A DNA stretch of 33,529 nucleotides from Rhodopila sp. (GTDB taxonomy: Bacteria > Pseudomonadota > Alphaproteobacteria > Acetobacterales > Acetobacteraceae), in NCBI GenBank assembly GCA_031291715.1, contig JARLIN010000093.1, positions 1 through 33,529 on the forward strand, in the 5' to 3' direction. Below the pieces are notes generated by a model that worked only from the letters and a program-made list of their open reading frames with translations, ran no database searches and had not been told where the DNA came from. This document shows positions 5,101-25,368 of this stretch, piece after piece (position 1 is the stretch's first letter; each line of letters starts with the position of its first letter). A program made the position numbers and the translations under genes.

Positions 5101-5144
5101 CCGAACCTCTTCCGTGGCGCGCGGTTATCTGTAAGCGTGTCGGC

Positions 5145-7012: not shown

Positions 7013-7170
7013 GCTGGGGCACGGGGGTAGGTCAGGCGACGTTTTGCGCGGGGGTGGTCTGGCATCGGTTCGAATGTTCGATTCCGACCCGTTGCGGACA
7101 TCTATCTGATGCACTCAAGAATCATGCACCACGGGAAATGCAAACTTGGAGCGCCTTGCGAGCTTCAATT

Positions 7171-8807: not shown

Positions 8808-8888
8808 GAGGCGGTGGTCCTGGTGATTTCGACGTCTTTTCTGTGAATCAACAAAGATGTTGAGGGCGGCGCGTCTTCATCCCTGTGT

Positions 8889-8966
8889 TGTGGCCGGGCT
8901 TGACCAAGCCCCCCCGCAAACGCCGGAGTCTGCGGGGATCGCCGGGTCAGGCCCGGCGATGACGGT
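8889..8966. repeat. REP-like cluster of GC-rich inverted repeats
   Basis: Three hairpins lie in tandem: GGGCTT-GACC-AAGCCC, then CCCGCA...TGCGGG, then GCCGGG-TCAGG-CCCGGC followed by GATGACG. The last one belongs to a dispersed family with other copies near 9031, 15407 and 27961. It lies between the two uncharacterised minus-strand genes, upstream of the one ending at 7986. Confidence 0.65.
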
Positions 8967-9030
8967 GGGAGGAATGGCTCGCTCGGCCAAAAAATTCTCC
9001 CGCCCTCCGCTTATTCTGATGCGCATGTCG

Positions 9031-9056
9031 CCAGGCCCGGCCATGACACGAGGGGG
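9031..9056. repeat. Partial copy of the GGCCCGGCCATGAC dispersed repeat
   Basis: CCAGGCCCGGCCATGACACG resembles the right half of the element at 27961 and the end of the 15407 copy. It abuts the stop of the uncharacterised gene at 9058, so it may sit in the 3' UTR. Confidence 0.45.
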
Positions 9057-9057
9057 C

Positions 9058-9870
9058 TCACGGGATCAGATCCCCTGGCCGGATCGGCCGGATCTTCGGG
9101 ATCCGCTTGATGCCCTTCCGCAGGTCCGCCTCGTATTCCCGCTTGTACATCAGGCCAAGGCGGCGCCCGATATAGGCGGCCTGCTGGGGTGTCGGGTCCT
9201 CCGGCATGATCATGCCGCCGCCGGGGAGGATGCCCTCGGTATTCGCGATGTCCAGGCCTTCGTTCTCCTTTTCGATCCGTTCGCGCTCGCGGCGTTCGTC
9301 GGCGACTGCCAGGTCCTCCTGTGTCCATGCGACCGGCAGGGCCGGTTCCGGGCGGCGTTCGGGTTCGGGATCGTCCTCGCCGCGGCGGCAGCGTTCCTCC
9401 CATTCCAGTACGGCGCTGGCCGGGTCGGGTTCGGGCCAGGCGCGCGAAGGCGGCCGGCCGACGGGGACCGAGAGCGGTTTGGCCTGCCGCCGTTCCATTG
9501 CCTTCAGCAGGGAGTCGAAGGTGCGGGCGGCGGAGGCCGCAGTGGTGATGTGGCGGGTGCTGTCGCCGTTCGGTCGGCGGAGGTTCATGCCGATGCGCCA
9601 GCACGCGGCGGCGGCATGGTAGGCGGAAAGGGCCTGTACGCCGAGCATGACCTCGATCTCGTCACGGGGATGCAGGGCGGAGAGGGCGCGCATCGCGCTG
9701 TGCATGCGCCGGTAGGCCCAGCCGCGCGGCTCGGTGGAGTCGAGCGGCATGGTGCGCATCAGGGTGCGGATGGCTTCGTTCATGAAGCCTGGCTCCAGGG
9801 GGCCGTCTTCGTGGAAGATCGCGTCGCGGTCGTAGGGCGGGGCAGGTTCGGCAGCGGTCGGCTCGGGCAT
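9058..9870 (-). CDS. Uncharacterised protein, second member of the pair
   Basis: 270 residues from ATG 9870 (MPEPTAAEP). The open frame continues upstream to 10116 but runs through intergenic repeat-like DNA, so I use the ATG. Residues ~25-130 are helical with conserved-looking blocks (FMNEAIRTLMRTMP, RGWAYRRMHSAMRALSAL, ALSAYHAAAACWRIGMNL, ARTFDSLLKAMERR). Residues ~145-200 are acidic and Pro/Arg-rich, and the C-terminal ~60 residues (TPQQAAYIGRRLGLMYKREY) form a second compact helical segment. I do not recognise a family. The arrangement of helices echoes the neighbouring gene at 7986-8807. No enzyme motif is visible. Confidence 0.6.
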   Translation of the reverse strand: MPEPTAAEPAPPYDRDAIFHEDGPLEPGFMNEAIRTLMRTMPLDSTEPRGWAYRRMHSAMRALSALHPRDEIEVMLGVQALSAYHAAAACWRIGMNLRRPNGDSTRHITTAASAARTFDSLLKAMERRQAKPLSVPVGRPPSRAWPEPDPASAVLEWEERCRRGEDDPEPERRPEPALPVAWTQEDLAVADERRERERIEKENEGLDIANTEGILPGGGMIMPEDPTPQQAAYIGRRLGLMYKREYEADLRKGIKRIPKIRPIRPGDLIP

Positions 9871-10151
9871 TCGGTCTGTCGTTCTTTGTATGTTCCTAAG
9901 TGGGCGTGGAGTTGGGGGAGCGGGGCGGCTGATGCAAGGGGGCTCGTTAAAAGAATGCAACCACAGATGAACGCGGATTGAGCGGCTCCTGGCCGGACCG
10001 CGCCGAGCCATGACGATCGCGGAGAGGGCGGTGCCTCGTCCCGCGCGGGAACGGTTTCCCGGCTCCCGCCTGCCGCCCGCTTGCCTTTCCCCCCAAGCTG
10101 CGCGACCCTTGGGCAACTTTCGTTGTCCAGGATAAGCAAAGCGAGGATGCC
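9871..10151. other. Divergent intergenic region with an ACCACAGATGAACGCGGAT-type repeat fragment
   Basis: This ~280-bp gap separates the minus-strand uncharacterised gene from the plus-strand molybdenum hydroxylase. At 9959-9979 it has AACCACAGATGAACGCGGAT, which resembles a widespread intergenic repeat of unknown function. Promoters for both flanking genes must lie here, but I could not assign -35/-10 boxes with confidence. Confidence 0.4.
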
Positions 10152-12434: not shown

Positions 12435-12441
12435 TCGGCCG

Positions 12442-12690
12442 TTGGCACGGATCGTATTCACGTCGGGCTTCGCACGCCGCTACACCAGCGGCGTGCGGGA
12501 GTTCGAGGTGGAGGCAAAGAACCTCCGCGGCGTGCTGAAGGCGATGGACGACCTCTATCCAGGGTTGGGCGAGCATCTGGAGGAGGAAACGACCGTCGCC
12601 ATCAACGGCGAACTGCACGAGACCGGCTATTTCCAGCCCGTGCCGCCTGGCGCGGAGGTGTTTTTCATTCCGAAGATCGAGGGCGGGTAG
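12442..12690 (+). CDS. MoaD/ThiS-like ubiquitin-fold sulfur-carrier protein
   Basis: 82 residues, the usual size for MoaD. It ends in Gly-Gly (KIEGG), the C-terminus that MoeB/ThiF-type enzymes adenylate and thiocarboxylate. Other family marks are a strand-helix start (EFEVEAKNLRGVLKAMDDLYPGL), AINGE, and the PPGAEVFFIP strand before the tail. The start appears to be TTG 12442, 7 bp after the upstream stop, with GGAAGG in the end of the previous gene. The position directly behind a molybdopterin enzyme suggests a role in molybdopterin dithiolene synthesis or in sulfuration for this enzyme. It could instead be a dedicated sulfur carrier for another pathway. Confidence 0.82.
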   Translation: MARIVFTSGFARRYTSGVREFEVEAKNLRGVLKAMDDLYPGLGEHLEEETTVAINGELHETGYFQPVPPGAEVFFIPKIEGG

Positions 12691-12708
12691 GGAGCAGGTA
12701 CGGGTTGC

Positions 12709-12728
12709 GAATGGTCAGGTGACCATTC
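12709..12728. promoter_or_regulatory. Perfect 9-bp palindrome GAATGGTCA-GG-TGACCATTC
   Basis: The arms 12709-12717 and 12720-12728 are perfect complements. The site lies between the convergent ends of the MoaD-like gene and metA. There is no U-tract on either strand. It could form an 8-bp hairpin with an AGGT loop and slow convergent transcription, or be an operator; the TGGTCA/TGACCA half-sites resemble GntR-type sites. The role is undecided. Confidence 0.4.
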
Positions 12729-12785
12729 ATCACTTGGCCGTTCTGATACATCCTTGTTCCATTTCCTTATGCCCCCAACGCGCCG

Positions 12786-13706
12786 TCAGGTCTTCCCGAT
12801 CAAGCTGATGTCAAACGGTGTCGTTTGATAGATCTCATTGATCCAGTTGGAGAGCAGCAAATGCGCATGAGGCCGCCAGCGATTCGGTGGCGTCAGTGAT
12901 GTATCGTCGTTGGGAAAGTAATTAAACGGCAGCTTGATCGGTACGTTTGCCTTGATGTCCCGAAAATACTCGTCCGCGAGGGAGCTGGAATCGTATTCGA
13001 GGTGATCGAGCACGTAGAGGCGTCGGAATTTTCCGTCTTCCACGATGCAAGCGCCTTTCTCATCGGAGTGCGCCAGCAGCGTGAGATCTGGGCGACCCGC
13101 AAGATCCGTGGCTTTGATTTCGGCCCAGCGCGATATCGGAATGGAGAAATCGTCGGAGAAGCCATTGAGATACGGTGATGACGGCTTCAGGATTTTCTGC
13201 CGGTAGACACCAAAGGCTTTTTCCGGAAGCTGGTGTTTCGGGACGCCATGAAAATGGTAGAGCGCAGCCATCGCGCCCCAGCAGACATTCATCGTCGAAT
13301 GTACGTTCGTTTGCGTCCATTCAAAGATCTGCTGCATTTCCCGCCAATAGCTGACGTCTTCATAAGGGATTGTCTCAACCGGCGTGCCGGTGATGATGAA
13401 GCCGTCGAATTTCCGATCCTTTGCTTTCTCCCACGTTTGGTAAAACGCGAGCAGATGATCTTCCGAGGTGTTCTTGGGCTTATGGTTACCGATCCGGACG
13501 AGCGAAAGTTCGACCTGTAGCGGCGAGGCGCCGAGGAGGCGTGCCATCTGCAGTTCGGTCTTGATCTTGTTCGGCATGAGATTGAGCAGCCCGATCTGCA
13601 GCGGGCGGATATCCTGACGGATCGCCACCGCCTCGGTCATCACACGCACACCCTCGTTCACCAGGGCTTCGAAGGCGGGCAGCTTATCGGGAATCTTAAT
13701 GGGCAT
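12786..13706 (-). CDS. metA: Homoserine O-succinyltransferase
   Basis: 306 residues from ATG 13706 ([13 protein letters not shown]), matching the canonical MetA N-terminus; a TTG four codons upstream is less likely. The catalytic triad sits at the canonical numbers: Cys142 in [10 protein letters not shown], His235 and Glu237 in VLDHLEYD, with Lys47 in MPNKIKTE. It transfers an acyl group from succinyl-CoA (or acetyl-CoA, since some MetA proteins use that donor) to homoserine, the first committed step of methionine synthesis. A SAM-II riboswitch precedes it, so expression should fall when S-adenosylmethionine is plentiful. Its GC content is visibly lower than that of its neighbours, which may reflect transfer. 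Confidence 0.97.
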
Positions 13707-13751
13707 AGCAGTCACCAAAAAACGACAACAGTTCGCCTCTGGTCCGCAAGC

Positions 13752-13812
13752 GGCCCTTTAGCGATTTTTTTAACGTGGCTGCTAGCCGGCCGGCCAAATC
13801 ACCACGGAGGAT
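13752..13812 (-). promoter_or_regulatory. SAM-II riboswitch upstream of metA
   Basis: On the minus strand the leader reads CGTGGTGATTTG, a G/C-rich loop, GCAGCCACGTTAAA, then AAATCGCTAAAGGG, the SAM-II consensus. Both helices can be drawn: P1 pairs CGTGG (13802-13806) with CCACG (13774-13778), and the pseudoknot pairs GATTT (13796-13800) with AAATC (13763-13767). The aptamer ends ~45 nt before the metA start, a short distance that fits occlusion of the ribosome-binding site on SAM binding. SAM-II is known from alphaproteobacterial metA/metX leaders. Confidence 0.93.
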
Positions 13813-13851
13813 CTTCCTTACAAGACCCACAAAGGAATAGCCATGCTCCTA

Positions 13852-14490
13852 TTAGCCCTCCGCCACCGCCGGATAAGGCTGCCCCCATTTGTCCTGATAC
13901 ACGAAGTCCGACAGCTTCCCGCGCCCGACCGGACCGAATTTTCCCATCGGATAGCCGATCGGCAGGATCGCGTAGGAATGCACCCCAGGCGGCAGGCCGA
14001 GCGCAGCCTCGGCTTCCTTTTCATAAAGCAGGTGCCGCGTCGTCAGCGTCGATCCCAGCCCCAGCGCGCGGATCGTCAGCAGCATGTTCTGCACGGCCGG
14101 ATAGATCGAGGCGCCAGCCCCGCGGGTCGGGTTCGGCCCATCCTCCAGGCAGGCCACGATCCAGACCGGCGCTTCGTGGAAGTGCTCGGTCAGGTATTCG
14201 ACCGCGCTGTGCTGACGGCCGTAACGTTCGGCCGTCACGCCGGGCGGTGGCGCGCTGGTGGCGTAGCGAGGGCCGATGACCTCGTCGAACGCCTTTTTGT
14301 ACCAGACCTGGACCGCCTTCTTGATCGCCGGATCCTTGATCACCAGGAACCGCCACTTCTGCGTGTTTCCGCCATTGGCCGCGGCCGTTCCCGCTTCCAG
14401 GATTTGCTTGATCAGTTCATCAGGCACCGGGTCCGGCTTCAGCCGGCGCATCGAGCGCGTGGTTCCGATGATTTCAAAAAAATCAGGCAT
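13852..14490 (-). CDS. Nitroreductase family FMN-dependent oxidoreductase
   Basis: 212 residues. The N-terminal TTRSMRRLKPDPVPDELI and NGGNTQKWRFLVI are the FMN phosphate- and ring-binding motifs of the nitroreductase superfamily, and the C-terminal LGSTLTTRHL...VHSYAILPIGYPMGKFGP completes the fold. It would act as a cytoplasmic homodimer reducing quinones, nitro groups or enoyl-type substrates with NAD(P)H. It starts 13 bp after the stop of the SDR gene and is read in the same direction, so the two probably form an operon. The substrate is not predictable. It ends ~40 bp before the SAM-II element, leaving little room for the metA promoter. Confidence 0.92.
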   Translation of the reverse strand: MPDFFEIIGTTRSMRRLKPDPVPDELIKQILEAGTAAANGGNTQKWRFLVIKDPAIKKAVQVWYKKAFDEVIGPRYATSAPPPGVTAERYGRQHSAVEYLTEHFHEAPVWIVACLEDGPNPTRGAGASIYPAVQNMLLTIRALGLGSTLTTRHLLYEKEAEAALGLPPGVHSYAILPIGYPMGKFGPVGRGKLSDFVYQDKWGQPYPAVAEG

Positions 14491-14503
14491 CTCGTGTCCT
14501 CCC

Positions 14504-15301
14504 TTAAAGCCGCTTTACCGGTGCCACGCCGCCCGAGCCGGAGCGGCCGCCGTCGATGACAATGTGCGTTCCCGTCACGTCGCCGGACAGGTCTGAGCAC
14601 AGGTATAGCACGGCGCCGGCGATCTCTTCCGGCAGGGCGTAGCGCCCGGTCGGGATGCCCGCGGCGTAGGCGGCGTGGACACCCTCCGGATCGTTCGGAT
14701 TGCGCTGTGACTCCAGCGACCGCATCATCCGCGTCTCCACCGGGCCGGGGCACACCGCGTTCACCCGCACGCCAAGTCCCGCCACGTCGGTGGACGCGAC
14801 CTTGGTCAACCCGAGCACGCCGTGTTTGGACGCGACGTACGCCGGCATGCCCGGCGACCCGAACAGCCCGGCGACCGATGCGGTGTTCACGATCGCCCCT
14901 GACCCTTGTTTCAACATGACCGGCAACACATGGCGCATCCCCAGGAACACGCCCTTCAGGTTGACCGCGATGACACGGTCGAAGACCTCTTCGTCGTAGT
15001 CCTGCGTCGGTACGACTTTTCCCTCGATGCCGGCGTTGTTGAAGAAGCAGTCGATCCGGCCATACGCCGCCAGCGTCTTCTCGACATAGTCCTTCACCGA
15101 TGCCGACTTCGTCACATCGGCCTGCACGAATGCCGCCGTGCCGCCACGCTGCGCGATGATATCGACGCTCGCGCGCCCGGAGTCCGCATCGGCGTCCACC
15201 ACCATCACCTTCGCCCCGCGTAGAGCGAACCCCAAAGCCGTCGCACGGCCGATGCCACCGCCGCCGCCGGTGATCAGTGCCACCTTTCCGGTAAAATCCA
15301 T
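14504..15301 (-). CDS. Short-chain dehydrogenase/reductase (SDR, classical)
   Basis: 265 residues. It shows TGGGGGIG at residues 11-18, an acidic residue after strand 2 (VVDADAD, Asp36) that favours NAD(H), NNAG at 88-91, Asn114, Ser142, and the YxxxK pair Tyr155/Lys159. PGPVETRMM follows in the usual substrate-loop position. It should interconvert a secondary alcohol and a ketone. A strong Shine-Dalgarno (GGAAGG) precedes ATG 15301. Downstream lies the nitroreductase, 13 bp away. The 5' region holds an unusual 20-bp tandem repeat. Confidence 0.94.
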   Translation of the reverse strand: MDFTGKVALITGGGGGIGRATALGFALRGAKVMVVDADADSGRASVDIIAQRGGTAAFVQADVTKSASVKDYVEKTLAAYGRIDCFFNNAGIEGKVVPTQDYDEEVFDRVIAVNLKGVFLGMRHVLPVMLKQGSGAIVNTASVAGLFGSPGMPAYVASKHGVLGLTKVASTDVAGLGVRVNAVCPGPVETRMMRSLESQRNPNDPEGVHAAYAAGIPTGRYALPEEIAGAVLYLCSDLSGDVTGTHIVIDGGRSGSGGVAPVKRL

Positions 15302-15328
15302 TTTCGTTTCCTTCCAGTTCTTTCTTTA

Positions 15329-15426
15329 ATCATCACGGCCCGGCTTTACGTCACGGCCCGGTCTTGATCATCTTGGCCCGGTCTTAATCATCACGGCCTG
15401 GTCCTGATCGTCATGACCCGGGCCAT
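15329..15426. repeat. Imperfect 20-bp tandem repeat, about five units
   Basis: Units begin at 15329, 15349, 15367, 15387 and 15407 and follow the pattern ATCATCACGGCCCGGTCTTA; unit 2 is 18 bp and the last merges into the dispersed CCCGGGCCATGACGGG repeat. The array fills the gap between the CoA-transferase stop and the SDR start, within the SDR 5' region. Confidence 0.8.
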
Positions 15427-15454
15427 GACGGGAGAGGGCTACCCGCTTGTTACT

Positions 15455-16627
15455 CTAAACAACCTTCTCCGCGTGCAGCCTGGCGATCTCCTCTGCGTTG
15501 TAGCCCAGTTCCCCCAGGATGGAGTCGGTGTGCTCGCCCGCTTCCGGCGTCGCGCTGCGGATGCTCCACGGCGTGCGGCTGAGTTCGATCGGTTGGCCGA
15601 TCACCTCGACGTCGCCCAACACCTTGTGCGGCACGACCCGAGTGATCCCCAGATGCTTCACCTGCGGATCGGCGAATACCTCGTTCATCTTGTAGATCGG
15701 GCCGGAGGGAACGCCCGCCTTGTTCAAAGCCTCGATCCATTCGGCCGAGGTCTTGCCGCGCGTGATCGCTTCGATCGCTTCGTTCAGCACATCCCGGTTT
15801 TCCAACCGGGTCCGGCCGGTCGCGAAGCGTGGATCGGTCGCCAGTTGCTCGGCCCCGAGCGCCTTGCACAGCCGGCGGTAGATATCGTCCCCGGCCGCGG
15901 CGATGTTGATATACCCGTCCGCCGTCGCGAATACACCTGTCGGGATACTTGTCGGGTGGTTGTTCCCCGCCTGCCCAGGCACCTCTTTCGCGATCGTCCA
16001 GCGCGCCGCCTGGAAATCCAGCATCGAAATCTGCGCGCCCAGCAGCGAGCTTTTCACCCACTGTCCTTCGCCGGACTGCTCACGCTCCAGCAATGCTATC
16101 AGAATGCCCATCGCGGCGAAAATCCCCGCGGTCAGGTCGGCCACCGGAATGCCGACGCGCATCGGGCCGCGCCCGGGCTCGCCGGTGATCGACATCAGGC
16201 CGCCCATGCCCTGGGCGATCTGGTCGAAGCCGGGCCGGTCGCGATACGGTCCATCCTGCCCGAACCCCGAGATACTGGCATAGACGATCCTGGGGTTGAT
16301 CGCCTTCAGGCTTTCGTAATCCACCCCAAGACGGAATTTCACGTCCGGCCGGTAGTTTTCCACCACCACGTCCGCCTGGGCGACGAGGCGCTTCATCACC
16401 GCCAGGCCTTCGGGCGATTTCAGGTTCAGCGTCAGGCTGCGCTTGTTGCGGTGCAGGTTCTGGAAATCGGGCCCATGCCGCTCACCGCCCAGGCCCGCAT
16501 CGCCTTCCGGCGATTCGATCTTGATCACATCGGCGCCCCAGTCGGCCAACTGCCGCACCGTGGTGGGGCCCGCGCGCACACGGGAGAGGTCGATGACCTT
16601 GAAGCGGGCGAGGGGGCCTGTCGTCAT
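15455..16627 (-). CDS. CaiB/BaiF family III CoA-transferase
   Basis: 390 residues, standard single-domain length. The N-terminal LARFKVIDLSRVRAGP and ADVIKIESPEGD are typical, as is HRNKRSLTLNLKSPEG. The catalytic Asp is Asp164 in PVADLTAGIF, followed by SGEGQWV. It should transfer CoA between an acyl-CoA (often succinyl- or formyl-CoA) and a carboxylic acid. Unlike the enzyme at 1813-4410 it has a single, complete active site. It lies downstream of an MFS carboxylate-type transporter on the same strand, with the Rieske gene between, so it may activate an imported acid. Confidence 0.93.
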   Translation of the reverse strand: MTTGPLARFKVIDLSRVRAGPTTVRQLADWGADVIKIESPEGDAGLGGERHGPDFQNLHRNKRSLTLNLKSPEGLAVMKRLVAQADVVVENYRPDVKFRLGVDYESLKAINPRIVYASISGFGQDGPYRDRPGFDQIAQGMGGLMSITGEPGRGPMRVGIPVADLTAGIFAAMGILIALLEREQSGEGQWVKSSLLGAQISMLDFQAARWTIAKEVPGQAGNNHPTSIPTGVFATADGYINIAAAGDDIYRRLCKALGAEQLATDPRFATGRTRLENRDVLNEAIEAITRGKTSAEWIEALNKAGVPSGPIYKMNEVFADPQVKHLGITRVVPHKVLGDVEVIGQPIELSRTPWSIRSATPEAGEHTDSILGELGYNAEEIARLHAEKVV

Positions 16628-16692
16628 GCGCGGATCCTTCCAATCGGGACCCTATGTTCGCATGAAAAATCCCCGCCGGTCGAGGCAGCGGC

Positions 16693-17334
16693 TTACATCT
16701 GCACCACCGAGGTCAGCTCGAATGTCTCGCCTGTCGGATTCTCGCCAATCCGCAAGATCTTCTCGTCAACAAAACGATACGGCGGCACAGGCAGATTGTA
16801 CGGCGCCGGAACCCCGCTATAGACCCGTCCCGCCAAGTCGTATTTCGACCCATGGCACGGACAAAAATACCCACCCGGCCAGTTCGGGGCCGGCGTCGAT
16901 GGATCTGGGGCCGGCATATACGCCGGCAGGCATCCGAGGTGCGTGCAGATCCCGACCAGTACCGCATATTCCGGCCTGATCGAGCGATGCCAGTTCTCGG
17001 CATATGGCGGTTGCTGGTGCACGGTCGAACCAGGGTCCGATAACAGCTTGATAAGAGCGGGCTCCTGCAAGGTCTTCAGCGCCGCCGGCGTGCGGTTTAC
17101 GATCAGCATCGGCGCACCGCGCCACAGCACGACGATCTGTTGCCCGACAGCGATCTTGGACAGGTCGATATCGATAGGTGCACCCGCGGCGATCACGTCG
17201 GCTGACGGATTCATCGAATCGATCAGCGGCCATGCGATCGCCCCGGCCCCGATCGCCGTGCCGGCGATGGCGATAAGGCCGAGCAGATCGCGCCGCTTAG
17301 GTTCGGCCCCGGGCGAAATGGCATGCGACGACAT
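16693..17334 (-). CDS. petA: Rieske 2Fe-2S protein, cytochrome bc1 iron-sulfur subunit-like
   Basis: 213 residues from ATG 17334 (MSSHAISPG); an upstream TTG would add 24 residues. The N-terminus has a twin-Arg signal-anchor (KRRDLLGLIAIAGTAIGAG, ~residues 13-31), as in bc1 Rieske subunits. The cluster ligands are Cys130/His132 in CTHLGC and Cys158/His161 in CPCHGS, with the disulfide Cys135/Cys160. Length and motifs match ubiquinol-cytochrome c reductase subunit 1. However, no cytochrome b or c1 gene is adjacent; the neighbours are an MFS transporter and a CoA-transferase. It may be the sole copy displaced from its operon or a second, specialised Rieske protein. Confidence 0.88.
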   Translation of the reverse strand: MSSHAISPGAEPKRRDLLGLIAIAGTAIGAGAIAWPLIDSMNPSADVIAAGAPIDIDLSKIAVGQQIVVLWRGAPMLIVNRTPAALKTLQEPALIKLLSDPGSTVHQQPPYAENWHRSIRPEYAVLVGICTHLGCLPAYMPAPDPSTPAPNWPGGYFCPCHGSKYDLAGRVYSGVPAPYNLPVPPYRFVDEKILRIGENPTGETFELTSVVQM

Positions 17335-17429
17335 CGGGTGCACAGTGGGCAGCGCGAATGGCCGCTCCAATGGCTGGCGCAATAACGATTTCGTGATGCG
17401 GGCCAAACATTAACCCGCCGGTCCCGCTC

Positions 17430-18734
17430 CTAGGCCGGCTGCGGCACAGGTTCGAACGCCGCGGCATCGATCGGCTTGCCCGGCACGACGAAGACATACA
17501 TCAACGCGCAAACCAGCCCCAGCGCCGCGCTGAACAGCAACGCCGGAACAAAGGTGCCGGTGTCCTGCACGATGAACCCGGTCACCGCCGGGGCCAGCGC
17601 GCCGCCGATATAGCCGCCGCAGTTCTGGATGCTTCCCAGCGACGCCGTGCAGTGCTTCGGCGCGATCACGCTCGCCAGCGCCCAGCACATCGCGCCTGCC
17701 ATCCCGTTGAACAGCAGCGCCGTCGAGATCGCCGCCACCGCCACGAACGTGCTGGGCGTCAGTGCCGCGACGATGGTGAATCCCGCCATGCCGGTCAGGC
17801 CGACCACCACCGGGATCTTGCAACTGTTGACCGGCGAGACACCGCGCCGCGCCAGGAAATCGGCGGACCAGCCGGCGCCGATGCTGCCGATGATACCGAA
17901 GGCGAACGGGATGCCCGCGACCCAGCCGGTCTTCGGGATGCTCATGTGCCGTTCGATCTCGAGGTAGCCGGGCAGCCAGGACTGATAGACCCAGCCCATA
18001 TAGACCTCACCGAAGAAGCCGAAGACCATGCCCCATGTGGCCCGATAGGCGAACAGGTGCTTCCAGTCGGCCCAGGTGACCCGTGTCGCTGTCGTGGCCG
18101 CTTCGCCGTCGGACAGGTAGGCCCTTTCCTCGGCGGTCAGGTCGACTTCGTGCGGTTCGCGATAGACGGCATACCAGATCAGCGACACCGCGATGCCGAC
18201 GACGCCCATGATGACGAACATCCAGCGCCAGCCAAAGGACAGCATCAGCGTCGTCAGGACCAGCGGCGCGATGGCGGGGCCGAGCTTGGAGCCGCAGAGC
18301 CCGATGCCGGTGGGCAGGCCGCGCTCGCGTACGTTGTACCAGTCGCGAACGACGCGCACGAGGCCGGAGAACTGCGGTGACTCGCCCATCCCCAGGAACA
18401 CGCGCGCCCCGACGAACTGCCAGAATCCGTTCACGAGGCCGCCCACGCCTTGCGCCAGCGACCAGACGAAGATGCCGGCCCCCAGCAGCTTGCGCGGCCC
18501 CAACCGGTCCACCAGTGCGCCGGCGGGAAGCTGGAACGCGGCATAGGCCCAAAGAAACGCCGACAATAGCAAGCCCATGTCGACGATGGATAATCCCAGA
18601 TCGTGCCGGATCAGCGGATTGGCGACTGCCAGTGTGGATCGGTCCACGTAGTTCAGCGCACAGCCAAGCGTTATCAGCCCGATCGAGTTGCGCTGGATGC
18701 GCTTGATCCGCGCGGATGCAGTGACAGCAGCCAT
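17430..18734 (-). CDS. MFS transporter, probable anion:cation symporter (ACS) family
   Basis: 434 residues with about 12 hydrophobic helices. ALNYVDRSTLAVANPLI in helix 1, the loop 2-3 motif DRLGPRKLL, and GARVFLGMGESPQFSGLVRVVRDWYNVRERG in helices 4-5 are typical of the glucarate/phthalate/tartrate-type ACS group. It should import an organic anion, probably a carboxylate, with protons across the inner membrane. The gene is first in a same-strand run (MFS, Rieske, CoA-transferase, SDR, nitroreductase), which would fit uptake, CoA activation and redox conversion of a carboxylic acid. That pathway is inference. Confidence 0.9.
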   Translation of the reverse strand: MAAVTASARIKRIQRNSIGLITLGCALNYVDRSTLAVANPLIRHDLGLSIVDMGLLLSAFLWAYAAFQLPAGALVDRLGPRKLLGAGIFVWSLAQGVGGLVNGFWQFVGARVFLGMGESPQFSGLVRVVRDWYNVRERGLPTGIGLCGSKLGPAIAPLVLTTLMLSFGWRWMFVIMGVVGIAVSLIWYAVYREPHEVDLTAEERAYLSDGEAATTATRVTWADWKHLFAYRATWGMVFGFFGEVYMGWVYQSWLPGYLEIERHMSIPKTGWVAGIPFAFGIIGSIGAGWSADFLARRGVSPVNSCKIPVVVGLTGMAGFTIVAALTPSTFVAVAAISTALLFNGMAGAMCWALASVIAPKHCTASLGSIQNCGGYIGGALAPAVTGFIVQDTGTFVPALLFSAALGLVCALMYVFVVPGKPIDAAAFEPVPQPA

Positions 18735-19140
18735 TTATTCGCTCCTTTTGGAGTCTGTTGGGACGTTCGGGTCCAAGCCTAAGCATGGTTAGCGGTGTTG
18801 GCTATATCGACGGCCGGGCACGTCGATCGCGACTGTGCCTGTTTTTTCGTTTTTTCGTATTAACCACCGAGGAGGCTCACAGGGCGTCGTAGATGGCGGG
18901 GCATCGCGCCCGGACGGATCGTTTCATTGGTTTGCGATTTGTATTTATACTTTTCGAACGTAACTGCCCGCTGTGACGGGATCAATGACGGAGCCGATTG
19001 GGGGCCGCGAAAGAAGTATATCGTGACGCTCAGCGCGGAAGGGCGGAAACAGCTGGCGAAACACTCAGCGCGAGCGAGGCTCGGCGACAACAAAATCCGA
19101 GCCTATCCGGACTCCATGGTCTCCACGCAGTGGGACCACC
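18735..19140. other. Gene-poor region with repeats and an IS630 remnant
   Basis: About 400 bp without an intact gene. It holds the direct repeat GTTTTTTC-GTTTTTTC near 18841, TTAACCACCGAGG (18860-18872), which is similar to other intergenic junk repeats, and the transposase N-terminal fragment listed separately. Upstream-facing sequence near 18735-18780 should contain the MFS promoter. Confidence 0.5.
18999..19064 (+). pseudogene. N-terminal fragment of an IS630-type transposase
   Basis: One frame gives GPRKKYIVTLSAEGRKQLAKH, which resembles the conserved start of IS630-family transposases ((R/K)KYIVxLSAEERxxL). The similarity fades after ~20 residues and the rest of the gene is absent here. 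It is too short to be functional. It lies just left of the cupredoxin gene. The call rests on recall of the family N-terminus and should be treated as tentative. Confidence 0.5.
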
Positions 19141-19584
19141 TTATTTTACGACGACATCCAGCCGCATCTTGGGGTGGATACCGCACAACACCACGAACTC
19201 TCCGGGGACGGTGAACACGATGTCTGTCTTGGTGCCGGGCTCCTGGTCGCCGGAATCGAAACTGAAGGTCTTCGAATCGACGTAGGCGTGATGAATGAGT
19301 TCACCGTCATCATTGAGGATCTCGACCGTCGCGCCACGATGGACGGACAGAAAGCCCGGATTGAACGCCTGGCCCTTCTGTGTGACCGAATACAATTCAG
19401 CCGGGGTTCCCGCCAAAAGCGGAATCGCGCACGCAACACACAGGATCGCGCCGGCCACGGCCGGTTTCCAGGCGCCCTTACGCGCCGCGGCGGCCGTTCT
19501 GGCGTGCCTGGCGCCAGCAGAGACAGCGAAGGCGGTCCGCCGGATTGCCTCTGTCCACCACTTGCGGGCAACGGCGATAACCAT
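19141..19584 (-). CDS. Amicyanin/plastocyanin-like cupredoxin
   Basis: 147 residues from ATG 19584, preceded by a G-rich Shine-Dalgarno; an upstream TTG is possible. A basic N-terminus and hydrophobic segment (~residues 41-58) act as signal or anchor. The rest is a single cupredoxin domain. Type 1 copper ligands can be placed: a His in ELIHHAYV (98 or 99), then Cys134, His137 and Met140 in VVLCGIHPKM, the CxxHPxM loop shared with amicyanin. It would carry single electrons in the periplasm. The divergent neighbour is a GGDEF-EAL protein, and a MauG-like di-heme enzyme lies ~5 kb away. The gene family is often labelled methylamine utilization protein, but no methylamine dehydrogenase genes are present. 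Confidence 0.85.
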   Translation of the reverse strand: MVIAVARKWWTEAIRRTAFAVSAGARHARTAAAARKGAWKPAVAGAILCVACAIPLLAGTPAELYSVTQKGQAFNPGFLSVHRGATVEILNDDGELIHHAYVDSKTFSFDSGDQEPGTKTDIVFTVPGEFVVLCGIHPKMRLDVVVK

Positions 19585-19602
19585 CAATCCCCCCGAACAT
19601 CC

Positions 19603-19631
19603 TTGATTCAAGCGACATCAAAATCTCTAAT
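19603..19631 (+). promoter_or_regulatory. Candidate promoter for the GGDEF-EAL gene
   Basis: TTGATT (19603-19608), a 17-bp spacer and TCTAAT (19626-19631) form a weak sigma-70-like match in the AT-rich 112-bp gap between divergent cupredoxin and GGDEF-EAL genes. Shared regulation of the two is possible. Confidence 0.3.
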
Positions 19632-19696
19632 GGAATTATATCCATCTTGCTATCATAATTCGACGCAATCTGTCTGTTAGAGGGATCTACCACGCT

Positions 19697-22648
19697 ATGC
19701 CCTTCATTGGCCTGCGCCGGATCGGTTCAGCCAGCTACCTAACGATCCGCGCAAGCATCTTTATTGGCTTCGCATTGATGTGCGTGTTCATCGGGGTACT
19801 AGGGTATTCCTCCGCCCAGATGATCAAGCGGTCGGCGGCGCTGGTCGTGGAGACGTTCGACAGATCGCTCATGTCGATCGATTACGCCCGGGCGGCCGCG
19901 GCGGATTTCTCGGCGATGCAGACCGGCTTCCTCCGGTTGCGTCTGGCTACGACCGCCGCCCGGCAGAAGGAACGCGAAGCCGAGTTGGAAGTCCTGGCCA
20001 AGACGTTCTACGAAGATCTCGACATCAGCGCTACGCGATCGCAGTCGGCCCGAGCGAAGCGCGCCGCGCAGACCGTGAAGAACGCGGTGGACGGGTGGCA
20101 AAGAAGCCGCAATGATATCGACCCGCAGCTTCCCCTGTCCGAGGTACTCGCAAACCTGGACGTCTATTCCGAAACCGTCAACCATCAGATCGATCTGCTG
20201 ATCAACCTGACCGCGGGCGACGGCTTCCTGCATCGCCAGCAGGCGTTGCGGTCCATCCAGACCGAAACCGAGATGGACATCGCGTTCACGCTGGCGGCCC
20301 TGCTCCTGTCCGCGATTGTGACCCTGGTGCTGACCAAGCGTATTTCGGGGCCGGTCTCGGCCGCCTCCGCCATCGCTGCCCGCATCGCGAGCGGCGATCT
20401 GGACGTGGCAATCCCAGAGGCGCGGCGCGACGAGCTGGGCGACTTGCTGCGCTCCATGTCGATCATGCGCGACAGCATCCGGGCGATGATGCAGGCCGAG
20501 GTATCGCAGCGGCAATCCGCCCAGGCGCGCCTGATGGACGCGATCGAGAACTCGCGGGAAGGAGTGCTTCTCGTCGATACCGCTGGACGCGTTGTGATCG
20601 CCAACTCGCCCCTGGCGGCCTTCTTCGGCGATCTGAACGAGCAGCTCGCGCCGGGTGCATCGCTGTCCAGCCTGATCCAGGCTCTGGTGCGGACAAAGCT
20701 TGTCGAGGAATCCAGGCTGGCGATCGATGCGCTGCCCTGGTCGTCCGCGACCGACTCGCCTGGGACGGTGGAGATCGGTCTGCTGGATGGCCGGTGGCTC
20801 AGAGTAAGCTGGTGCCCGACGCGCGAAGGCGAGCTGGTCGCATTTTTCAGCGACATTACCCTGTCGAGAAGCCGCGAGGCGCAGCTCAAGCAGACCAACC
20901 TCTGGTTCGATGCCGCGTTGACCAATATGTCGCAGGGTCTCTGCGTGTATGACAGCGATTCCAGGCTCAAAGTCGTCAATGCGCGATTCCGCGACATCTA
21001 TAATCTGTCCGCGGACCAGATCCGGATTGGAACAACGATCGAGAGCGTGTTGTCGCTCCTTGGTTCTTACAAGAAAGATACGAGCCGCGCGGCCCAGGAC
21101 AGCCAGGCGATACGGGCACGAATCGCAACGAGGGCAATGTTCGCGCAGCAGGACGAGCTGGCCGACGGCCGTGTGATCGCCTTTTCGCATCGGCCGATCT
21201 CCGACGGCGGGTGGGTTCTTGCGTATGAAGATGTAACGGAACGTCATCGAAGCGAGGCACGGATCTCTTTCATGGCGCGGCATGACCCTCTGACCGCTCT
21301 GCCGAACCGGGCCTTGTTCGGCGAACGGTTAGAGCAGGGGTTGGCGGCGCTGGAGCAAGGCGGCAGCCTCGGTCTGCTCCTCATCGACCTCGACCGGTTC
21401 AAGGAGGTGAACGACACGCACGGCCATCCGATCGGCGACGCTTTGCTTCGCCTCGTCGCCCAGCGGCTGCTCGCCTGTTCCCGGGAGGGAGACACGGTCG
21501 CACGCCTCGGCGGCGATGAATTCGCGCTCATCGGGACAAGCCTGAGCGACGCGGATGACGCCAAGCAACTCGCCGCCCGCATCATTCAGACCCTGGTCCG
21601 GCCGTTCGCGATCGAAGGGTACCGAATCGAAATCGGCGCAAGCGTCGGGATCGCGATGGCGACCAACAGCGACTGCGACTCCGACACCCTGTTCCGAGAC
21701 GCCGACATCGCCCTCTATTCTGTCAAGAAGGAAGGCCGGGGCAGCTACAGCGTGTTCACGCCCGATATGGAGTCCGCCCTGCACGCACGTCGCGTCCTGG
21801 AACACGATCTCCTGCAATCCGTTGCCAACGGGGAGATGGAGCTCGCCTACCAGCCCATGGTGGCTCTGAACGACGGGCAGATCAGGGGGTTCGAGGCGCT
21901 GCTGCGTTGGAATCATCCGACGCGCGGAAGAATAATGCCGGACGAATTCATCTGGCTGTCGGAGGAAACCGGCTTCATCGACAAGCTCGGCGCCTGGATC
22001 CTGCGCCAGGCCTGCAAGGATGCGGTGCAGTGGCCTGAACCGCAGAAGATCGCGATCAACGTCTCCCCGGTTCAGTTCCGGTCCGGCAAGCTGATACGCT
22101 ATCTTGAGGAAGCCCTGCGTGATACGGGTGTGGCGCCGTCCCGTGTCGAGCTGGAAATCACCGAAACCACGCTGCTGCACGAGAACGAGGCCAACATCGC
22201 AACGCTGCGCAACATGCATGCGCTTGGCGTCAGGATCGTCCTGGACGATTTCGGAACGGGCTTCTCATCCCTCAGCTACCTACGAAGCTTTCCGTTCGAT
22301 CGCATCAAGATCGACCGCTCCTTCGTAAAGGACTTCGGTCTGAGAAACGATGCCGACGCCATCATCCATGCCATCCTGGGACTTGGAAAAAGCCTCCGCA
22401 TTCCGGTCACCGCCGAAGGCGTGGAGACGTATGAGCAGCTTGAGCTTCTGCGCGTGAGGGGATGCGACGAGGTGCAGGGCCACCTGATCAGCAAACCGAT
22501 ACGAGCAGGGGACATTCCGGCGCTGGCGGCCAGCGTCGCGGCGACCCTGGCTGCAGCCACGGTGACATCGGACGGAGGCCTGGGCGGTCAGGCGGATCGC
22601 CCGGCTTACAGCCCGCCTGCGGGAAACAAGGCCGCGTGGCCGGCATAG
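19697..22648 (+). CDS. Membrane-bound HAMP-PAS-PAS-GGDEF-EAL c-di-GMP enzyme
   Basis: 983 residues. Layout: TM1 ~20-38, a periplasmic helical sensor region ~40-190, TM2 ~194-213, HAMP ~214-270, PAS ~277-390, second PAS ~397-515, GGDEF ~529-690, EAL ~697-945, and a disordered tail. The cyclase motif GGDEF is intact (605-609), with an RxxD inhibitory site (REGD) five residues upstream. The phosphodiesterase has EALLRW at 733, NVSPVQF, ELEITET, DDFGTG and AEGVET, so both activities could work. It should set local c-di-GMP in response to a periplasmic signal. Its 3' end overlaps the convergent membrane-protein gene by 43 bp. The cupredoxin and di-heme neighbours suggest redox or metal sensing, which is inference. 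Confidence 0.95.
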   Translation: MPFIGLRRIGSASYLTIRASIFIGFALMCVFIGVLGYSSAQMIKRSAALVVETFDRSLMSIDYARAAAADFSAMQTGFLRLRLATTAARQKEREAELEVLAKTFYEDLDISATRSQSARAKRAAQTVKNAVDGWQRSRNDIDPQLPLSEVLANLDVYSETVNHQIDLLINLTAGDGFLHRQQALRSIQTETEMDIAFTLAALLLSAIVTLVLTKRISGPVSAASAIAARIASGDLDVAIPEARRDELGDLLRSMSIMRDSIRAMMQAEVSQRQSAQARLMDAIENSREGVLLVDTAGRVVIANSPLAAFFGDLNEQLAPGASLSSLIQALVRTKLVEESRLAIDALPWSSATDSPGTVEIGLLDGRWLRVSWCPTREGELVAFFSDITLSRSREAQLKQTNLWFDAALTNMSQGLCVYDSDSRLKVVNARFRDIYNLSADQIRIGTTIESVLSLLGSYKKDTSRAAQDSQAIRARIATRAMFAQQDELADGRVIAFSHRPISDGGWVLAYEDVTERHRSEARISFMARHDPLTALPNRALFGERLEQGLAALEQGGSLGLLLIDLDRFKEVNDTHGHPIGDALLRLVAQRLLACSREGDTVARLGGDEFALIGTSLSDADDAKQLAARIIQTLVRPFAIEGYRIEIGASVGIAMATNSDCDSDTLFRDADIALYSVKKEGRGSYSVFTPDMESALHARRVLEHDLLQSVANGEMELAYQPMVALNDGQIRGFEALLRWNHPTRGRIMPDEFIWLSEETGFIDKLGAWILRQACKDAVQWPEPQKIAINVSPVQFRSGKLIRYLEEALRDTGVAPSRVELEITETTLLHENEANIATLRNMHALGVRIVLDDFGTGFSSLSYLRSFPFDRIKIDRSFVKDFGLRNDADAIIHAILGLGKSLRIPVTAEGVETYEQLELLRVRGCDEVQGHLISKPIRAGDIPALAASVAATLAAATVTSDGGLGGQADRPAYSPPAGNKAAWPA

Positions 22649-23658
22649 TATGCCGCGATCACGACAGCGAGCGCGGCGAGATAGCAAACGGGCGCGAGGA
22701 ATACAGGATGCCGCCGGCCGGGCCTGTTATCGGCCGCGATTGCCAGCATCACGACGATGATGGGGGAGTGACCGATCGCGTCGATCTTGCCGAACTCCAA
22801 GACCGCCGCGACGAACATGCTTCCCAGGATGATCGCGGCGGTGCGCCGCATCAGGGGGGTTCCGATAAGGGCAAACGCCAGGCTGAATTCCACGACACCT
22901 GCCGACTTCATATAGAAGGCCACGTCGAATCCCATCGACATTTCGGGATGAGTGACGAACAGCGGATAGGTCCATTGCGGATATCCCCATTTCTCGACGG
23001 ATGCCCACATCAGCGTCACCGATGCGGCACAGCGAACGACGTCCAGCGGTTTCACCCTCCAGCGAGTCCGTTCGAGACCGGTCAGGGTAAAATAGCCGGC
23101 TGCGCCAAGAAAAATCGGATAGTCCATCAGATGAAACAGGCCGTAGTGCTTGATGGCATACCCGTATAGGAACACCATCCCCGCCGCTGCGAGTATCAGG
23201 GTCTGCCGCCAGATGAAGCACGCCCCGATGAACAGTTGCAGCCAGGAAATCGCGCTTACCTGCGTTGTGAGCTCCGGGGTCATTATGATCCCGCCGACCG
23301 ACCAGAGCGACACGAAGAATGCGCCGTAGGTCACCCGCATCAGGACTTCCGTCTGGTACCATATTCGGGTCGTGACACGGTCGATCGACCAAACGATGGC
23401 GCGGCCCAATACAGAGTTCTCGATCACGGTCGCGGCCGCGAACACAGTGGCCGCGATCAGGATGAGATAAATGAATTTTGGATCGAGGATCCAATCGAGG
23501 CTCTGGGGCGATTCGGAAACGTCGAAGGGGCAGAACCATTTGACGTGCGCCGCGGCGGCTTTCGGAAGAAATGTTAGCGCAAACAATGACACCGCGGCAC
23601 CAAGACAAGGTCTTGCCCAACATTTGCCGATCCAGCGGGTGGATGATCGCAATGTCAT
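22606..23658 (-). CDS. Polytopic membrane protein, DoxX-like (uncertain)
   Basis: 350 residues from ATG 23658 (MTLRSSTRW); the frame stays open to 23754 but the extension looks non-coding. After an N-terminal hydrophobic segment ending KAAAAHVKWFCPFDV come about eight more hydrophobic helices. The AHVKWF segment at the first periplasmic face resembles a group of proteobacterial integral membrane proteins annotated as hypothetical or DoxX-like. Charged or polar residues within helices (SVEKWGYPQW, FGKIDAIGHSP) are reminiscent of DoxX/MauE-type proteins. It is encoded on the same strand as the MauG-like gene, with a tiny divergent gene between. A role in maturation or quinone-linked redox chemistry is plausible but unproven. 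Confidence 0.75.
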   Translation of the reverse strand: MTLRSSTRWIGKCWARPCLGAAVSLFALTFLPKAAAAHVKWFCPFDVSESPQSLDWILDPKFIYLILIAATVFAAATVIENSVLGRAIVWSIDRVTTRIWYQTEVLMRVTYGAFFVSLWSVGGIIMTPELTTQVSAISWLQLFIGACFIWRQTLILAAAGMVFLYGYAIKHYGLFHLMDYPIFLGAAGYFTLTGLERTRWRVKPLDVVRCAASVTLMWASVEKWGYPQWTYPLFVTHPEMSMGFDVAFYMKSAGVVEFSLAFALIGTPLMRRTAAIILGSMFVAAVLEFGKIDAIGHSPIIVVMLAIAADNRPGRRHPVFLAPVCYLAALAVVIAAYYAGHAALFPAGGL

Positions 23659-23754
23659 CACTGGTCTACCGCCAGAGGTATCGGTTTTGACTCCTTTTTT
23701 GGGGTGAACGATGGCAAGATGCGAGCCGTACCCCTCATACACTGGAAGCAGCAC

Positions 23755-23916
23755 ATGTTCGGAGTTCTGAGCGTTATCATCCTCGCTGGCGGCGCAACGG
23801 TCGCATACGAGTCGAGGCTTTTCCCCTCGCGGAGAAAGATGTTCGAGGGTTGTGGCGGCATCCTCTTTATCACGGGCCTCGTGCTACTCGGATTTACATT
23901 TCCGATACCGTACTAA
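23755..23916 (+). CDS. Small two-helix membrane protein
   Basis: 53 residues from ATG 23755, with GGAAG 6 bp upstream; an in-frame GTG at 23704 would add 17 residues. Two hydrophobic segments (FGVLSVIILAGGATVAY and GILFITGLVLLGFTFPI) flank a short basic loop (SRRKMFEGC). No family is recognised. It sits between two minus-strand genes of the redox block and points the other way. It may be a real small membrane protein; the evidence is its topology and ribosome-binding site. Confidence 0.45.
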   Translation: MFGVLSVIILAGGATVAYESRLFPSRRKMFEGCGGILFITGLVLLGFTFPIPY

Positions 23917-23942
23917 TAGCACTCTGATAATGCAATTCTTTA

Positions 23943-24953
23943 TCAACGCGGAAGGACCGGAATAGCAACTGGGTGGGGCGTTTCGGTCAGCGTATTCAGA
24001 AACGCGATCAGATCGAGCTGATCCTGTTCCGATAGCCCGAGAGGCCGGATCAGCTCCGATCGGCTTGGCCGATCTATGCCCCCCTCGTTATACAGCGCCA
24101 ACACACCCCGCAGGTCCGGGATCGACCCATCGTGCATGTAAGGTGCCCGGTGTGCCACGTCGCGGAGAGTGGGGGTCTTAAACGCGTAACGGAGTTTCCC
24201 AGACGTCGGGAACAAAGCGCCTCGTCCGATATCGTCCCCTTTCGCGGTGCCGATGTCGTGGAAGGAGCCGTCGGTGAACGCCCATCCCGAATGGCATGAC
24301 GCGCAGTGCGCCTTTCCGTTGAACAGCGCGAAGCCCTGCTGCGCGCTTGGGCTGATTGCCTGACTGTCGCCTGCGACCCACCGATCGAAAGGCGCGGTCC
24401 CCGACACAATTGTCCGTTCAAAGGCCGCGATCGCCTGTTCGACGGTCGAGCGGGATACACCTTGTCCGGGAAAAACATCTTTAAAGGCAGCTACATAGCC
24501 CGGAATCTGCGCAATACGACTCAGCGCCTCCGTCTCCGAGAGGTTCATGTTGCCGGACGAGGAGATCGCCGCGAATGTCACGGCCTCGATGTCACGGAAC
24601 TTGCCGGTCCAACCCAGCCTTGGAAGCTGATTGATGTCGAGGAGCGTCGGCGCGCGCAGCTTCATCGAGCTGCTGTCGTCCGCGACCGCCCTGGGCAGGC
24701 CATCTCCCCAGGACAAGGCGGGATTGTGACAACTCGCGCACGAACGAGCGGACGTTCCGGACAGAATTGGATCGAAGAAGAGCGCCTTTCCAAGCTTGAT
24801 TTCGTGGTCCTCGCGGGGATCGACCTGACCGGCCGCCACCTGCGGGGGCCTGTATTTGGCCAGCAGTTCGGGATCGGCCGGCGTCATATCGGCCCGCGCC
24901 ACGGCGGTTACCAGCAGCAGAATGAGGACAAGCAGGGTCGTGACGGTGCGCAT
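23943..24953 (-). CDS. Di-heme cytochrome c peroxidase/MauG family enzyme
   Basis: 336 residues with a Sec signal peptide (MRTVTTLLVLILLLVTAVARA). Two c-heme sites are visible: CASCH at 72-76, followed by the inter-heme Trp82 region, and CASCH at 217-221. The C-terminal block KTPTLRDVAHRAPYMHDGS is typical of the family. After it, LALYNEGG places Tyr288 where MauG has its axial Tyr and classical peroxidases have Met, so this is more MauG-like than peroxidase-like. It would act in the periplasm, either reducing peroxide or oxidatively modifying a partner protein. The start ATG 24953 lies one base after the stop of an upstream broken frame. The cupredoxin 4.4 kb away could be an electron partner. 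Confidence 0.9.
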   Translation of the reverse strand: MRTVTTLLVLILLLVTAVARADMTPADPELLAKYRPPQVAAGQVDPREDHEIKLGKALFFDPILSGTSARSCASCHNPALSWGDGLPRAVADDSSSMKLRAPTLLDINQLPRLGWTGKFRDIEAVTFAAISSSGNMNLSETEALSRIAQIPGYVAAFKDVFPGQGVSRSTVEQAIAAFERTIVSGTAPFDRWVAGDSQAISPSAQQGFALFNGKAHCASCHSGWAFTDGSFHDIGTAKGDDIGRGALFPTSGKLRYAFKTPTLRDVAHRAPYMHDGSIPDLRGVLALYNEGGIDRPSRSELIRPLGLSEQDQLDLIAFLNTLTETPHPVAIPVLPR

Positions 24954-24954
24954 T

Positions 24955-25125
24955 TCAGGTCCGGATGGTCACTTGATACTCAAGGGTCCAATTGAGGTTA
25001 AGTAGGGTGTCCATGTCGAGTCTGAATCGGCCATAGAATCGCGCGATATGCGACGGTCCTGCGTCATTGACAGTGAGGAGAATGTCCGAATCGGTCGCTC
25101 CGCGATCCAATGACGGGATCGATTC
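24955..25125 (-). pseudogene. Possible 3' remnant of a gene once coupled to the MauG-like gene
   Basis: This minus-strand frame ends TGA (24955-24957), one base before the di-heme start codon, the spacing of a coupled operon partner. Its last ~45 residues (ILLTVNDAGPSHIARFYG, then LNWTLEYQVTIRT) look like real protein sequence. Upstream of this the frame runs antisense to an IS630 transposase remnant and becomes Arg/Ser-rich junk. The simplest reading is that the IS truncated the 5' part. The family is not recognised. Confidence 0.35.
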
Positions 25126-25368
25126 GGCCCCGCGGAGGATCGCCGCAAGTGAGCATGCCGAGGCGCTCGGCGGAGCATGGAGCGACAGCCGGGCCGCGAA
25201 GGCCCTGGACACAAGTCTCGCGACCGCCGCCCGAGTCCGCCGGCACCGGGTTGAAGAAGGGTTGGAAGCCGTGCTGACGCGCCCGCCTCGGTCAAACCGC
25301 ATATGGTCGATGGCGCCGCGGAGGCCGAACTGATCGCCCTGGCCTGCTCGGAACCGCCCGATCCCGGC
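25100..25368 (+). pseudogene. Decayed IS630-family transposase, central fragment
   Basis: The plus strand encodes GGAWSDSRAAKALDTSLATA and VEEGLEAVLTRPPRS, then after a frameshift near 25290-25305 VDGAAEAELIALACSEPP. These are the helix-turn-helix and linker blocks that IS630 transposases share. The N-terminus is missing, the frame is broken and everything after SEPP is absent, including the DDE catalytic core, so it is dead. It fills most of the ~490-bp gap between the di-heme gene and the acyl-CoA synthetase. It points the same way as the N-terminal fragment at 18999-19064. Confidence 0.8.

Follow-up and report, generated by a model that had tools for sequence, protein, structure and literature searches.

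MauG is the di-heme enzyme of tryptophan tryptophylquinone (TTQ) biosynthesis in the mau operon, and another enzyme of this type, MbnH, modifies the partner protein MbnP outside mau operons. Cytochrome c peroxidases pair with azurin or pseudoazurin as the electron donor, and in the receptor systems LuxP-LuxQ, TorT-TorS, MglB-Trg, and XylFII-LytS, a soluble periplasmic protein that binds small molecules is presented to a membrane receptor. According to PMC6405878, Tyr-His heme ligation marks MauG and BthA, the latter being, like bacterial cytochrome c peroxidases, a peroxide-reacting di-heme enzyme, whereas Met-His ligation marks ordinary peroxidases; BthA is described there as always accompanied by a putative phosphatase gene, not a copper protein, and its authors hold that the genomic context of MauG-like enzymes points to other chemistry. 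We here analyze a block of five genes (positions 18999–25368) in a 33,529-nucleotide stretch of Rhodopila sp. DNA (contig JARLIN010000093.1 of assembly GCA_031291715.1; "the window" hereafter denotes this whole stretch), encoding a cupredoxin, a GGDEF-EAL receptor, an AHVKWF-family membrane protein, a two-helix small protein, and a MauG-type enzyme. The block recurs as a module in many bacteria from soil and plants, its cupredoxin and receptor being the wider conserved core, and we propose, with a probability of roughly 0.55, that it is a periplasmic redox-signaling cassette, in which the state of the cupredoxin is read by the receptor with a consequent change in cyclic di-GMP (c-di-GMP). No description of the five-gene cluster was found in the literature searched, namely open-license papers in PMC.

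The MauG-type enzyme (23943..24953, minus strand) matches CCP_MauG with an E-value of 1.5e-42, as expected from its first-pass description as a MauG-like di-heme enzyme. It shares with MauG the di-heme fold, the pair of CXXCH motifs, a Trp (Trp115) that we take for the inter-heme Trp, and a Tyr in the axial position; the alignment pairs Tyr288 with chain position 294 of MauG structures and with a Met, the ligand of the electron-transfer heme, in a bacterial peroxidase. Both Tyr288 and Trp115 are identical in 45 aligned rows. Taken with the ligation rule outlined above, the Tyr at this position leads us to expect a Tyr-His-ligated six-coordinate heme and a chemistry closer to that of MauG than to that of a simple peroxidase; canonical cytochrome c peroxidases, by contrast, have Met-His ligation, and BthA differs in its genetic company. 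However, the enzyme falls below the cut-offs of the NCBIfam models for TTQ MauG (TIGR03791, its best NCBIfam match; 297.1 vs 443.85 bits) and for MbnH (TIGR04039; 172.7 vs 362.85 bits), and unlike MauG it is linked to a receptor. The methylamine dehydrogenase small subunit (Me-amine-dh_L, PF02975) gave no match in the window's genome (about 91% complete), while the same search matched the Indioceanicola plasmid as a control; the earlier remark that no methylamine dehydrogenase is visible extends, for the small subunit, to the genome as assembled, and a mau or methanobactin system was rejected on these grounds. The MbnH/MbnP pair remains a parallel in that a MauG-type enzyme acts there on a partner protein, although the partner here would be the cupredoxin plus the receptor.

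The receptor (983 amino acids; 19697..22648, plus strand) comprises a predicted four-helix periplasmic input domain, HAMP, two PAS domains, GGDEF, and EAL, and the domain searches recovered the HAMP, PAS, GGDEF, and EAL domains with which it had been annotated. The predicted model of the input domain (mean predicted local distance difference test score, 89) matches the four-helix bundles of NarQ and of chemoreceptors (best E 1e-3), and its Pfam 4HB_MCP score lies just under the cut-off (26.2 vs 27 bits). It is set apart from NarQ/Tar-type receptors by residues of its own, Asp55, Leu58, Arg65, and Trp134, which are identical in 16 of 16 rows regardless of the output domain, and by the adjoining cupredoxin gene. 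XylFII-LytS also appears as a weak PDB row in the structure search with this domain. The proposed architecture would resemble that of the LuxP-LuxQ-type systems, except that a redox copper protein would be presented here instead of a binder of small molecules.

Results

Conservation of the five-gene module

All five genes that the first-pass annotation had placed side by side were found within the block. In an alignment scan of 84,980 species genomes, the AHVKWF protein has 368 relatives, of which the best 80 loci were kept. In 44 of these 80, the stretch retrieved contains all four large genes, which span 5.7–7.1 kb and, in 41 of the 44, follow the order MauG+, AHVKWF+, cupredoxin−, receptor+. 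The small gene was detected in all 44 full loci by a hidden Markov model (HMM) built from the window and from matches in 24 of the 80 loci, and in 21 by blastp. The full loci come from Methylobacterium/Methylorubrum (14), Bradyrhizobium (20), and others (10: Acidisphaera, Afipia, Nitrobacter, Beijerinckia, Methylovirgula, and metagenome-assembled genomes). The genes are thus neighbors in other genomes as well, bearing out the prediction that they form a conserved module, and the earlier interpretation as a whole is partly supported. Among the remaining 36 loci, several of them on short contigs, an HMM recount gave MauG only in 18, cupredoxin only in 10, none in seven, and cupredoxin with receptor at a contig start in one.

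Acidisphaera sp. S103 (L097) has the exact order and orientation of the window at 54–80% protein identity by blastp, including a tail-to-tail overlap of the receptor and AHVKWF genes by 43 bases in both genomes. The flanks of this locus differ, and blastn of the window flanks gave no match to it. An earlier sample of the window's class had yielded AHVKWF matches in nine other genomes among 289; eight of these regions were read, and two of them (L015 and L016) contain all four large genes. One further full locus (L246) came from a later sample. At L015, photosynthetic reaction-center genes (pufC/M/L-like, by eye; 13801-17483) lie directly downstream of the block.

Cupredoxin and receptor as the wider conserved core

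The cupredoxin profile (A1) matched at 90 places in 65 of 385 genomes of the window's class. The loci read were the three that formed the profile, 40 others (L057–L096, namely the next 38 places by rank, the G356 region with two places, and a weak second match in the window's own genome), and 20 weaker matches as controls (L258–L277). A receptor with a window-type input domain (at least 60 bits) is encoded within 1.75 kb of the cupredoxin in 32 of the 40 loci, spread over 18 families, and within 200 bases, overlapping, or fused in 25; part of the training set of the receptor profile came from these loci, and 30 of the 40 are still positive when the window's own input domain is the sole query. 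None of the 20 control loci has such an input domain at this threshold. In a search of 240 genomes for the input domain, 48 matched at an E-value of 1e-20 or lower, each with at least 1–4 receptors among the matches listed, where no more than 10 candidates per genome were scored; with so few such receptors per genome, the contribution of chance linkage looks small. In the reverse direction, a cupredoxin was found within 1.75 kb of 20 of the 27 receptors scoring at least 139 bits (the 1.5-kb flanks account for 16, other locus reads for four), or of 11 of 18 when the nine receptors used for profile training are removed, compared with none of five lower-scoring four-helix receptors.

The same input domain is joined to different outputs. 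In 30 receptors near cupredoxins (those of the window and L015, and 28 of the 32 cupredoxin-linked ones), Pfam identified 21 kinases, five chemoreceptor signaling domains, three GGDEF-EAL pairs, and one nucleotide cyclase; HAMP occurs in all 30, and receiver and Hpt domains occur in 12 each. On the input-domain tree, in which three kinases are labeled "other", well-supported branches force two changes for the GGDEF-EAL output, and one change suffices for the chemoreceptor output. Gene fusions were also observed: MauG and cupredoxin form a single open reading frame (ORF) in L070, L085, and L023, and in L065 a kinase-type receptor runs through a hydrophobic stretch into a cupredoxin within one ORF, a topology that would put the fused cupredoxin in the periplasm, though this is a single case in which a sequencing error is possible. 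The input domain near 32 of the 40 cupredoxin loci, together with these fusions, strengthens the earlier idea that what the receptor reads is the copper protein. The N-terminal CoA-binding domain of a receptor kinase containing the same four-helix input (L241:6599-9436) is a further variation, for which the start may be misjudged.

Outside the window's class, a sample of 349 contained 18 genomes positive at 1e-8, and eight of these 18 carry such a cupredoxin. MauG lies beside the cupredoxin in four of these eight loci (L248, L249, L251, and L252), two of which (L251 and L252) also have hybrid kinases; in L255, the neighbor is a dCache-HAMP-GGDEF-EAL protein, and three loci have none of these adjacent. 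The combination of a copper protein with a membrane signaling protein therefore recurs with other input domains. A longer cupredoxin (about 210–250 amino acids) is encoded directly beside a GGDEF-EAL gene in L255 (4775-7754), L261, L266, and L274, where the input domain is unlike that of the window or only weakly similar to it (dCache in L255); these loci possibly represent a second, independent copper-protein/c-di-GMP pairing.

Copper-site and catalytic residues

The window cupredoxin (19141..19611, minus strand; start codon uncertain) is a small periplasmic protein with the type-1 His...CxxHxxM ligand set (CGIHPKM). Its profile matches cupredoxin domains in the PDB, and its Pfam Cupredoxin_1 score is below the gathering cut-off (16.7 vs 27 bits). 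His107, Cys143, His146, and Met149 are identical in 73 aligned relatives, an alignment that leaves out one over-long ORF (L144) and the fused cupredoxins. The first-pass label "amicyanin-like cupredoxin" holds for the cupredoxin with a type-1 site but is too specific in its first part; a relative adjoins mauG in a true mau cluster (Indioceanicola). In the receptor, all 45 module members retain the GGDEF, EAL, and DDFGTG motifs, the RxxD inhibitory site, Asn788, Glu820, and Lys871, and Gln927 and Glu907 are kept in 44; apart from RxxD, we count these as the metal-binding and catalytic residues of the GGDEF and EAL domains.

The AHVKWF protein and the small protein

The AHVKWF protein (22606..23658, minus strand; ATG at 23658, with an upstream GTG at 23754 also open) is polytopic, with many helices, an invariant H-x-K-W-F-like motif after the signal region, and an invariant Glu222-Lys223 pair. 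It had been called DoxX-like, a label that we do not retain: neither it nor the small protein matches Pfam or NCBIfam at 0.01, Foldseek with its model returned nothing under E 0.001, and in a second structural comparison its predicted fold is nearest to GGCX, at 7–9% identity and at a Z-score where a helical bundle can be a common arrangement. In sequence, it differs from GGCX, HTTM, and DoxX-like proteins by this low identity and the lack of a Pfam match; the absence of DoxX from the listed structural matches in itself proves nothing. The two-helix small membrane protein, first listed as a 70-residue ORF (23704-23916, plus strand), is a conserved gene with a better start at 23755 (23755..23916; ~54 amino acids). 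Its assignment to YrhK, a two-helix neighbor of AHVKWF in Martelella, was rejected, there being no Pfam match at 0.01. The Martelella plasmid pMM593 (L013:6950-8407) encodes a more distant AHVKWF homologue that carries a fused DUF305 domain; genes for a multicopper oxidase, a heavy-metal P-type ATPase, an Rrf2 regulator, and a YrhK family protein lie nearby.

Some MauG-type genes stand beside receptors with no cupredoxin detected. On the Rhizobium leguminosarum plasmid pRL31b5 (L025:6938-9740), such a gene is directly followed by a chemoreceptor (HAMP-MCPsignal), and no cupredoxin was found in the stretch; at L244 (1-3243), MauG-type genes are followed by a four-helix-bundle chemoreceptor, again with no cupredoxin match. 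MauG-type genes are common on Rhizobium plasmids, which supply 129 of the 386 plasmid records matched.

IS630 pieces and patchy occurrence

Pieces of IS630-type transposase lie at both ends of the block, on the plus strand. The left piece (19002..19121) aligns to residues 3–32 and the right one (25067..25333) to about residues 40–90 of the same annotated transposase, with no shuffle among 300 scoring as high in either case. The left piece is the weaker: against a second IS630-type protein it gave no in-place alignment, with scores as high in 14 of 300 shuffles, and a tblastn search of plasmids yielded a single match at E 9; the right piece is below the NCBIfam cut-off (15.6 vs 100 bits, E 0.0084). 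No further copy of either was found elsewhere in the genome, only short partial matches. The transposase debris reported earlier is thus real at both ends, but since the pieces share one strand, follow in order, and derive from the same N-terminus, they look like a single transposase gene interrupted by the block, which is the simplest picture, rather than one IS copy on either side. What looked like a truncated gene upstream of mauG (24955-25100) was dismissed as no gene, its C-terminal peptide having no convincing homologue among the loci compared (best E 2.9 besides the window itself).

Mobility of the module driven by IS630 found no support. No direct repeat of at least 7 bases was detected between the block ends, the one inverted match (8 bases, 0.23 expected) is not informative, and no IS630 gene was seen by eye among ORFs of at least 130 amino acids in the Acidisphaera sp. 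S103 locus (4500-18500). A composite IS630 transposon, which would have intact IS copies, terminal repeats, or a target duplication at both ends, is likewise not indicated by the pieces and repeats found. Plasmids were rejected as the vehicle: among 72,556 plasmid records, the AHVKWF protein matched 21 and the cupredoxin two, all below 60% identity, and the complete block was absent from the six matching plasmid regions opened, three of which were judged from the annotation table only.

Within the window's genus, an AHVKWF homologue occurs in three of 23 other species, with 39–48% identity as against 61–63% in Acidisphaera. One of these loci (L288) has AHVKWF, the small gene, and the cupredoxin but no MauG or receptor within the 12 kb read, and the other two have AHVKWF alone. 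This patchy occurrence suggests horizontal spread and loss. In L286 and L289, also from this genus, the homologue lies within an 870-residue open stretch that contains a single TAA and may be either a broken gene or a fused one.

Discussion

The redox-signaling proposal builds on the conserved linkage of the genes, the preservation of the catalytic and copper-site residues, the joining of one kind of input domain to exchangeable outputs, and natural fusions. From this arrangement we infer physical docking, the chemistry, the state that is read, and the directions of electron flow and of the c-di-GMP change. In the predicted mechanism, the cupredoxin would dock on the receptor's four-helix bundle in the periplasm, and the receptor would report the state of the cupredoxin, be it Cu(I) or Cu(II), copper-loaded or not, or covalently modified. 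The signal would then pass via HAMP and PAS to the GGDEF-EAL output, altering c-di-GMP. The MauG-type enzyme, with its expected Tyr-His ligation, may oxidize or modify the cupredoxin with peroxide, or with oxygen plus electrons, and the AHVKWF protein together with the small protein may act as a quinone-linked or copper-linked partner that resets the cupredoxin.

Several observations weigh against this proposal. The receptor and small-protein HMMs were partly trained on the very loci in which they were counted; two genera supply 34 of the 44 full loci, and the 80 loci are the best of 368. Six of the eight regions read in the earlier sample lack the other three large genes at the threshold used, bar one weak receptor-like match. 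No window-type receptor lies within 1.75 kb of eight of the 40 cupredoxins, and no cupredoxin was found near seven of the 27 receptors. Six of the 20 control loci contain a receptor of low similarity to the input profile (22–50 bits), three of these being GGDEF-EAL proteins directly beside the cupredoxin, so that the boundary is not sharp. Transcription of the cupredoxin and receptor genes is divergent in the window. Finally, only eight of the 40 loci have MauG next to the cupredoxin or fused with it, so that MauG is not essential to the core.

It may instead be that the block encodes a periplasmic peroxidase of the ordinary kind, served by a copper electron donor of its own in analogy to the azurin and pseudoazurin pairs, the GGDEF-EAL protein being only a neighbor that regulates behavior under the same stress without contacting the cupredoxin. 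The adjacency and fusions of MauG with cupredoxin and the peroxidase family membership of the MauG-like protein are compatible with such a system, which we nevertheless consider improbable: the axial position holds a Tyr, not the Met of ordinary bacterial cytochrome c peroxidases (by the rule of PMC6405878 given above), and the cupredoxin-receptor pair occurs without an adjacent MauG in 26 of the 40 loci, making the receptor the tighter partner.

Copper sensing, in which the receptor would tell holo- from apo-cupredoxin and so report periplasmic copper, with MauG and AHVKWF serving copper handling, is about equally unlikely. The identity of the copper-site residues in all 73 rows would fit, as would the genes for a heavy-metal P-type ATPase and a multicopper oxidase close to the Martelella AHVKWF-DUF305 fusion; however, no copper exporter or copper regulator is seen among the genes of the window block, and the tight copper binding usual for type-1 sites is better suited to signaling redox state than metal level. 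A mau-like cofactor maturation, with MauG modifying a periplasmic dehydrogenase encoded elsewhere and with the cupredoxin, MauL-like in its position, as electron acceptor or maturation factor, is very doubtful, because, for all the MauG and related cupredoxin in the true mau cluster of Indioceanicola and the best NCBIfam match, below cut-off, to TTQ MauG, the five genes include no dehydrogenase, PF02975 is unmatched in the genome while its control was found, and the association with the receptor would be left unexplained.

Returning to the redox-signaling proposal, we tentatively extend it, at clearly lower confidence, to a class-wide family of four-helix-bundle "redox ligand" receptors that would take a dedicated periplasmic cupredoxin as input and have interchangeable outputs (kinase, chemotaxis, c-di-GMP, or nucleotide cyclase); in the five-gene form, the MauG-type enzyme would oxidize the cupredoxin with peroxide or oxygen, and the GGCX-like membrane protein would re-reduce it from quinol. 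If this is true, c-di-GMP would be set by the balance of peroxide or oxygen versus quinol, and the copper protein would be a reversible messenger of electron state, not a respiratory carrier. For the role of MauG-like enzymes without a mau operon, the linkage described here names concrete partners, a cupredoxin and a receptor, with c-di-GMP as the output. It also suggests that a copper electron-transfer protein can serve as the ligand of a receptor; if so, the periplasmic redox state would be sensed in a new way. The occurrence of the cluster in the culturable laboratory genera Methylobacterium and Bradyrhizobium makes the proposal directly testable.

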